This document shows, one piece after another, positions 10,136-17,768 of a DNA stretch of 32,370 nt. The notes below the pieces were generated by a model. The model searched no databases. It was not told where the DNA came from and saw nothing but the letters and a program-made list of their open reading frames with translations. The DNA lies in NCBI GenBank assembly GCA_000990565.1, contig LBQC01000005.1, positions 1 through 32,370 of the forward strand, in the 5' to 3' direction. The position numbers were made by a program, and so were the translations under genes. The first letter of the stretch is position 1. The number at the start of each line of letters is the position of its first letter. The stretch comes from Candidatus Roizmanbacteria bacterium GW2011_GWA2_35_19. GTDB taxonomy: Bacteria > Patescibacteriota > Microgenomatia > UBA1406 > GWC2-37-13.

Positions 10136-10285
10136 TTACTTTGATGGGGTAATGAAGATGACCTTAACTCCGGTTTCTTCTGGGATTGGGGAGGCAATTT
10201 TATTATTTTCCTTAACAAAATTAAACAATACAAACGTTAAAAGCGCGACCCCTATAACTATTAAAATAAATCCTATTTTTTTCAT
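10136..10285 (-). CDS. 49-aa single-TM protein (MKKIGFILIVIGVALLTFVLFNFVKENNKIASPIPEETGVKVIFITPSK)
   Basis: Below the ORF-track cutoff; ATGA overlap with the upstream glycosyltransferase gene. Confidence 0.55.
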   Translation of the reverse strand: MKKIGFILIVIGVALLTFVLFNFVKENNKIASPIPEETGVKVIFITPSK

Positions 10286-11214
10286 AGGTTGATTTTTTCT
10301 TTTATTAAATATTTTGGTCGTCTTTGAATTTCTTTATAAATCTTACCAACGTATTCTCCAATAATTCCGATTGTAATTAGTTGAATTCCTCCTAAAAACA
10401 TAACAGCAGTAAAAAGACCCGTCCATCCGATTACAAACTGTTGTGGGTAAAGAGACTTCATCAGCAATTCATAAATAATTCCGAGGAATCCTAAAAAGCC
10501 GGATGTAATCCCTAAATAAGTCGCAATCCGTAAAGGCTTAATTGAGAAAGAAGTGATTCCCTCAAGAGCGAAGTTGACCATCTTAAAAAAACCATAATGA
10601 GTTTGACCTTTAAATCTCTTTTCTCTTTCAAAGTAAACAAAATCGGACGTATATGATCCCCAAGAGACAAGGCCTCTTAGAAATCTTGAATGCTCGGGTA
10701 GATCATTTAAAAACTGGACGACCGATTTATCAAGCAATCTAAAATCACCAACATCGGAGGGAATTGGAGTGTCTGATAGAAAGTTAATAAATTTATAAAA
10801 AACCTGAGCGGTAATTCTTTTAAAATAATCATCATACTCCCGCTTATCACGCTTAGCATAGACTACCTTTGCCCCATTTTCCCATTTATTTATCATTTCA
10901 GGGATGATCTCGGGCGGGTCTTGAAGATCAGCGTCAAGACTAATAACTGCGTCTCCATGCGCTTGATCATAGCCAGCGGAAAGGGCCATCTGATGGCCGA
11001 AATTTCTTAAAAATGACACCAGTTTTATATTTTTATCTTTTTCAATCTGTTTTTTAATATTTGAAGTAGTATTATCGTTTGACCCATCATCAACAAAAAT
11101 AATCTCATGATTATATTTTTTTATAATTGGTAGGAGGCGCTTTAAAAGAGGGGTAATATTACTTTCTTCATTATAGACGGGGATTATGATTGAAAGTAGA
11201 AAATCGTCGCTCAT
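10282..11214 (-). CDS. GT2 family glycosyltransferase (DPM1/GtrB-like) with C-terminal TM helices
   Basis: 'LSIIIPVYNEESNITPLLKRLL', 'IIFVDDGSNDNT', 'SLDADLQDPPE'; start placed at internal ATG (MSDDFLL), track ORF begins at 11292. Confidence 0.92.
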   Translation of the reverse strand: MSDDFLLSIIIPVYNEESNITPLLKRLLPIIKKYNHEIIFVDDGSNDNTTSNIKKQIEKDKNIKLVSFLRNFGHQMALSAGYDQAHGDAVISLDADLQDPPEIIPEMINKWENGAKVVYAKRDKREYDDYFKRITAQVFYKFINFLSDTPIPSDVGDFRLLDKSVVQFLNDLPEHSRFLRGLVSWGSYTSDFVYFEREKRFKGQTHYGFFKMVNFALEGITSFSIKPLRIATYLGITSGFLGFLGIIYELLMKSLYPQQFVIGWTGLFTAVMFLGGIQLITIGIIGEYVGKIYKEIQRRPKYLIKEKINL

Positions 11215-11255
11215 GAAGATTATTATATCATTTCTGGTCCGCCTACATTCATGTT

Positions 11256-11483
11256 CATCTCCTAGGAGATTATGCATTACTGTTATCTCCAATTACTTAG
11301 AGTGTCGGACTGTGTCTTCACCCCGCCCTTGCGGGGGTTGGCGTTCAGTCTCTACAGGTTCCCGACTAAGTCGGGATTCCCGCGGCGTTTTCCTGTTTAA
11401 TTAGGAGTTCGCCGTTATAAGCCAATTATCATACAAAATTACTTTCATATGAGCCCATTGTATTAAGCCTCCTGTGCAACCGT
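11256..11483 (-). ncRNA. group I self-splicing intron, ORF-less, about 228 nt
   Basis: Minus strand: P1 GUGU/GCAC with terminal U.G; P3 UUGGC/GCCAA; P4 CGGCG/CGCCG; P5 UCCU/AGGA; P6 GGG/CCU; P6a UCCCGAC/GUCGGGA; P7 GACUG/CAGUC; P8 CCCCGC-AAGG-GCGGGG; R 'GUAGAGACUGAACG' and S 'GAAGACACAGUCC'. Boundaries inferred from P1 U.G and a possible P10. Confidence 0.82.
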
Positions 11484-11514
11484 ACACTACCCCGTAATAT
11501 TAAAGAACGTATTG

Positions 11515-11520
11515 ATTATA
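11515..11520 (-). promoter_or_regulatory. candidate -10 box (TATAAT) upstream of the group I intron
   Basis: TATAAT about 30 nt before the predicted 5' splice site; no clear -35. Confidence 0.3.
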
Positions 11521-11649
11521 TCATTAATCACTACATCTTTCATCCTAATTTCTTAAATTTATTGACTTTACTTATGATTTATTCTTATCACCGTAACATT
11601 ACGCTGAGATAACTAAATTTTTACTGTTTATGTTCCTCTAAATAACAAT

Positions 11650-11766
11650 GTCATCCCCGTGAGCCGAAGGCTTCCCTTTGGGAAAGACGGGGATCCAGTC
11701 TATAAATACAATATTTATAATAATAAAAGAATATTTAGTCTGGATTCCCGCCTCCGCGGGAATGAC
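11650..11766. repeat. MITE-like composite inverted repeat (GTCATccccg...ggggATCCAGTCT / AGTCTGGATtcccg...cgggAATGAC)
   Basis: Two hairpin-forming arms in inverted orientation around an AT-rich spacer; resembles dRS3/NEMIS-type repeats. Confidence 0.65.
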
Positions 11767-11790
11767 TTCGATGTATCGATACATCGAAGT
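11765..11790. repeat. 26-bp perfect palindrome acttcgatgtatcgatacatcgaagt
   Basis: Exact self-reverse-complement, abutting the composite repeat. Confidence 0.85.
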
Positions 11791-11909
11791 ATTAATTTAC
11801 TTAGAAAATATTTTGGTTATATTGAAGGTATTTTGCTAAACATCAATTGTTAATTAACTTCGTCATCGATGTGTAACAATAATAATGATAAGGTGACGTA
11901 GAAACAATA

Positions 11910-17516: not shown

Positions 17517-17768
17517 ATGTACTTAGTTTATGCGATTTGGAATAAGGAACATAATAAGATTTATATTGGTCAAAGCGTAAATTTAATAGAACGACTAAGG
17601 TTACACAAAGAAAAAATATTTACTAACAGCTATACAAGTCGGTTTAGAGGAGAATGGAAACTTATTTATACTGAGGAATATGAGACGAGAAAAGAAGCAC
17701 TTGTGAGAGAAAAGCAATTAAAAAGTTATCGTGGAAGAGAGTTTGTAAAGAAGTATATTCCCCTGTAG
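17517..17768 (+). CDS. GIY-YIG nuclease family protein (83 aa)
   Basis: 'VYAIWNKEHNKIYIGQSVNLIERLRLHK' (YVY/YIG signature); TAG stop is inside the tRNA-Asn gene. Confidence 0.88.
   Translation: MYLVYAIWNKEHNKIYIGQSVNLIERLRLHKEKIFTNSYTSRFRGEWKLIYTEEYETRKEALVREKQLKSYRGREFVKKYIPL

Follow-up and report, generated by a model that had tools for sequence, protein, structure and literature searches.

The question raised by this locus is whether the structured RNA upstream of a family 2 glycosyltransferase (GT2) gene is a group I intron and, if so, which transcript it interrupts. The window, meaning the whole stretch of 32,370 nt analysed from Candidatus Roizmanbacteria bacterium GW2011_GWA2_35_19, had been credited in a preliminary description with a group I intron without an open reading frame (ORF) on its minus strand, lying in the 5' leader of the GT2 gene. 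The evidence set out below makes it very probable that the element is indeed an ORF-less group I intron, which interrupts the initiator tRNA-Met(CAU) of a Microgenomates (Roizmanbacteria-like) bacterium between U33 and C34, and that the damage to the 3' part of the tRNA gene is most likely either an assembly or consensus error or the mark of a dead copy.

The assignment to group I was borne out by the family match and the fold. When positions 11200-11600 were scanned alone, RF00028 scored 54.4 bits at 11286-11475 on the minus strand, above its gathering cutoff of 50 (E=3e-13), and the P3/P7 core is accompanied by P4-P6, P8 and P9. The minus strand of the region folds 4.0 SD beyond its shuffles, better than all 200 of them (z -4.0). 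The Rfam scan of the whole window with fast (default) filters missed the intron, its sole listing being a tRNA-Asn at 17759; given that these filters skip a family member above the gathering score, absence from a routine scan is no evidence against the intron. Elsewhere in this genome a further group I match (G000:C1:89075-89246) scored 18.1 bits, under the cutoff. The preliminary description had already placed P3, P4 and P7 at the positions in Table 1, and the P5, P6a and P8 that it read from the sequence are likewise present.

The extent of the intron, by contrast with its core, had to be redrawn. Comparison of empty and filled sites among relatives gives ends at 11465 and 11275, in place of the 11256-11483 (about 228 nt) first proposed, and the GUGU/GCAC helix at 11484-11487 that had been taken for P1 is the D-stem of a tRNA. 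For P2, homologues compared by eye favour the pairing in Table 1 instead of the AUACAA/UUGUAU helix originally given that name.

Table 1. Features of the intron locus and its surroundings, in window coordinates.
Feature	Position	Strand	Remarks
GT2 gene, independent neighbour	10282..11214	-	PF00535, E=1.1e-33
Extended -10 box of GT2 gene	11222..11230	-	TGATATAAT; ends 7 nt before ATG (11214)
Foreign 23 nt in place of T-arm and 3' acceptor strand	11239..11261	-	GAGATGAACATGAATGTAGGCGG; no match in 57 relatives
Remaining 3' exon	11262..11274	-	CATAATCTCCTAG; C34 A U A A, anticodon 3' strand UCUCC, variable-loop start; identical to relatives
Perfect 14-nt palindrome across tRNA breakpoint	11257..11270	.	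ATCTCCTAGGAGAT; from sequence, may be chance
Group I intron, ORF-less	11275..11465	-	191 nt; RF00028 54.4 bits; ends from empty site and 20 aligned sequences
P1	11469-11466/11455-11452	-	GGCU with GGCU
P10	11458-11456/11274-11272	-	CAU/AUG pairing
P2	11451-11443/11438-11430	-	homologues, by eye
P3	11425-11421/11342-11338	-	
P4	11414-11410/11387-11383	-	
P5	11406-11403/11394-11391	-	
P6a	11376-11370/11366-11360	-	
P7	11350-11346/11312-11308	-	
P8	11336-11331/11326-11321	-	
P9	11302-11297/11292-11287	-	
omega-G	11275	-	
5' exon of initiator tRNA-Met(CAU)	11466..11496	-	31 nt, 100% identical to intact intronless tRNA-Met of genome G006
Sigma-70-type promoter-like site of tRNA gene	11515..11543	-	ATGAAA-17-TATAAT with TG; consensus match only

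These boundaries are anchored in a set of related loci. A DNA search with 11520-11240 of the minus strand gave matches in 44 of 57 genomes, mostly to the stretch just before the intron only, and in the loci examined, for example in G006, such matches are uninterrupted tRNA-Met(CAU) genes. The empty site that the preliminary description looked to related genomes for is found in 14 genomes of the same genus, while four others carry the intron within an intact tRNA, so that the intron is present in five overall. A pattern search of named genomes identified 17 intron loci, partly overlapping the contigs of the 57-genome search and all from Microgenomates-type Patescibacteria (Roizmanbacteria, Gottesmanbacteria, Woesebacteria, Blackburnbacteria and others). 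There are 19 related loci with an intron at the same site, hence 20 distinct introns with that of the window, and common to all 20 are the insertion site, the end G/CATAATCT (the slash marking the splice junction) and the guide UGGGC. The homologous introns that were measured are 178 to 248 nt long and thus too short for a homing endonuclease gene. Following in-silico splicing, ARAGORN recovered tRNA-Met(cat) from 17 of 18 homologues, the remaining one having two Ns in its T-arm; locus L008 lay outside this scripted set and was read by eye.

The same sequences argue for a conserved fold. When the helices were read out sequence by sequence, all 20 proved to keep P3, P4, P7 and P9 paired, and each of these helices shows double-sided changes. 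Pair 2 of P3 alternates between U-A and C-G, pair 4 of P4 between C-G, U-A and G-C, and pair 5 of P7 between G-C and A-U, a change that may be a single event, with further changes at pairs 3-6 of P9; as related sequences share ancestry, these counts do not equal independent events. The U.G pair at the 5' splice site and the omega-G are kept in 20 of 20 and each pair of P10 in 18-20 of 20, and the loop of P9 is a GNAA tetraloop. As a separate observation on the outer stems, the P6a hairpin TCCCGACTTAGTCGGGA (window 11376-11360) is found again as an exact copy at another place in its own genome and in 10 further members of the genus, the reversed control giving no copy. Hairpins resembling P6a form the P5 and P8 loops of homologues, as if a dispersed palindrome enters outer stems.

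The flanks, previously said to hold no recognisable tRNA, identify the host gene. What precedes the intron is the 5' half of a tRNA-Met, made up of the acceptor 5' strand TACGGGG, the D-arm GTGT/GCAC, the anticodon 5' strand GGAGG and C32 U33, and the intron enters directly after it (CU/CAUAA). The promoter-like site lies about 19 nt upstream of the tRNA, and relatives have a TATAAT-like box at the same place. Further upstream of the tRNA gene, window 11640-11800 holds dense palindromic repeats (ATTCCCGCGGAGGCGGGAAT; GATCCCCGTC...GGGGATGAC).

A CAU anticodon could belong to an initiator, an elongator Met or an Ile2 tRNA. In the one-contig genome G026, ARAGORN finds two CAT tRNAs, of which the other is elongator-like with a G1-C72 acceptor pair, and AUA is covered by a tRNA-Ile(tat). 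Several homologues have a C1.A72 mismatch, which is typical of bacterial initiators. From this elimination in G026, together with the C1.A72 of several homologues, it is concluded at the level of sequence that the intron-bearing tRNA-Met(CAU) is the initiator and neither of the other two. The three G-C pairs of the canonical initiator anticodon stem (GGGCTCATAACCC pattern) are absent in all 57 genomes, the stem here being GGAGG/UCUCC; given that this absence is lineage-wide, it is not counted against an identity reached by elimination. In these Microgenomates the initiator tRNA is itself unusual, with an anticodon stem of A29:U41, G30:C40 and G31.U39 (L007, L008, L056, L064, L066, L120; window 11496-11466). 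Pair 1-72 is U1:A72 in Roizmanbacteria and C1.A72 in others, the T-loops of these initiator tRNAs are without U54U55 (CGCGACT), and the T-stem of the Roizmanbacteria initiator has a bulged base.

In the window copy, the 3' half of the tRNA is replaced after the anticodon stem and the gene as written therefore cannot yield a tRNA: after in-silico splicing, neither a tRNA (ARAGORN) nor a complete cloverleaf is obtained. Next after the foreign 23 nt comes ACCA (11238-11235), perhaps the 3' end of the tRNA. The lesion junction occurs in one of 72 family genomes, namely this one, and has no exact match in viral contigs, where the 3' part of the intron was not found either. Neither another copy of the tRNA nor the missing 3' half (<=3 mismatches) is found in the organism's own assembly, which is 86.7% complete and has one other CAT tRNA, elongator-like. 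By pattern, 17 of the genus's 20 genomes have exactly one intact 3' half, and ARAGORN finds an intact variant of it in G005.

The lesion is probably an error of assembly or consensus, the tRNA-fMet gene at this place in the living cell being normal and intron-bearing. The initiator gene is needed for initiation, and the genus has it as a single copy; none of the other genomes among the 72 shares the lesion; no source for the replaced sequence turned up in the window, the rest of the assembly or the relatives; and the assembly is a draft of 52 contigs. Against this, the lesion is local, with the anticodon stem and then ACCA, the GT2 promoter and the GT2 gene all in the right order. The alternative, that the lesion is real and marks a dead copy while an intact initiator tRNA lies in the roughly 13% of the genome outside the assembly, is the less likely, although it fits the completeness of 86.7% and an assembly whose only other CAT tRNA is elongator-like. 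Two copies occur in no genome of the genus, however, and the intron core and the 5' exon are without decay. A local assembly error is favoured over a dead copy because the gene is needed for initiation and is single copy.

A quite different reading, put forward in the preliminary description, is that GT2 is controlled by the splicing of an intron situated in the 5' leader of its mRNA. Two facts would suit such an arrangement: GT2 lies downstream in the same orientation, and the 3' half of the tRNA cannot be recognised in this assembly. Nevertheless, it is highly improbable: the 5' exon is half of a tRNA, with the same sequence as in relatives, and the tRNA genes holding homologous introns are complete, some of them without a recognised GT2 gene downstream. 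Furthermore, the extended -10 box TGATATAAT adjoins the GT2 ATG, is downstream of the intron in the window and precedes the GT2 ATG in most syntenic relatives, in which the spacing from tRNA anticodon stem to GT2 runs from 37 to 179 nt. Judged from these sequences, GT2 is most readily taken to have a promoter of its own, and given this and exons that are tRNA-fMet, splicing control of GT2 finds no support. It is equally hard to credit that the assembly is right and the locus holds only a 5' half and intron, with the 3' half supplied from elsewhere (a split tRNA, with the group I ribozyme acting in trans) or initiation served by another tRNA.

With the intron placed in the initiator tRNA gene, sequence comparison establishes its structure, its insertion site and, in relatives, the intact product, and the course of splicing may be inferred from known group I chemistry. 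To judge from the anatomy, a precursor tRNA would be transcribed from its own promoter and the intron would fold; a guanosine bound in P7 would attack after U33, at the U.G pair of P1 (GGCU/GGCU). Through P10 the CAU of the 3' exon would be aligned with AUG in the guide sequence, and joining of the exons after omega-G would restore the loop CUCAUAA.

The Azoarcus tRNA-Ile and Anabaena tRNA-Leu introns are about 200 nt, ORF-less, built on a P3-P9 core and situated in the anticodon loop, all of which they share with the intron described here. Their host tRNAs are other than the initiator tRNA-Met, and in Azoarcus the insertion falls at the opposite side of the anticodon. That tRNA-fMet can carry a group I intron has long been known, and the present intron is one more of this known kind. 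In cyanobacteria such introns hide tRNA-fMet from tRNA finders (PMC8450103; PMC1995217), and the relevant passage of PMC8450103 cites Biniszkiewicz 1994 and Paquin 1997 for initiator tRNA-fMet introns of Synechocystis sp. PCC 6803 and Gloeobacter. In both cases a group I intron interrupts an initiator tRNA gene within the anticodon loop, a likeness at the level of host gene and loop; the intron of Synechocystis measures 655 nt and contains a homing endonuclease gene (I-Ssp6803I, PMC1995217), whereas that of the window is 191 nt without an ORF and belongs to Patescibacteria. Among circularised genomes, nearly all of them CPR, some tRNAs are described as having group I introns that make them hard to detect (PMC8172020). 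The passage of that paper reporting these introns names no tRNA or site, whereas the present analysis defines both, together with 19 homologues.

The locus thus lends no support to a new kind of leader control. The patchy distribution of the intron within one genus, with five genomes carrying it and 14 having an empty site, provides a usable case for the gain and loss of a tRNA intron without an endonuclease. The intron also accounts for the initiator tRNA that routine annotation of such Patescibacteria would leave out, because the gene it splits is missed by tRNA finders and by fast Rfam scans.
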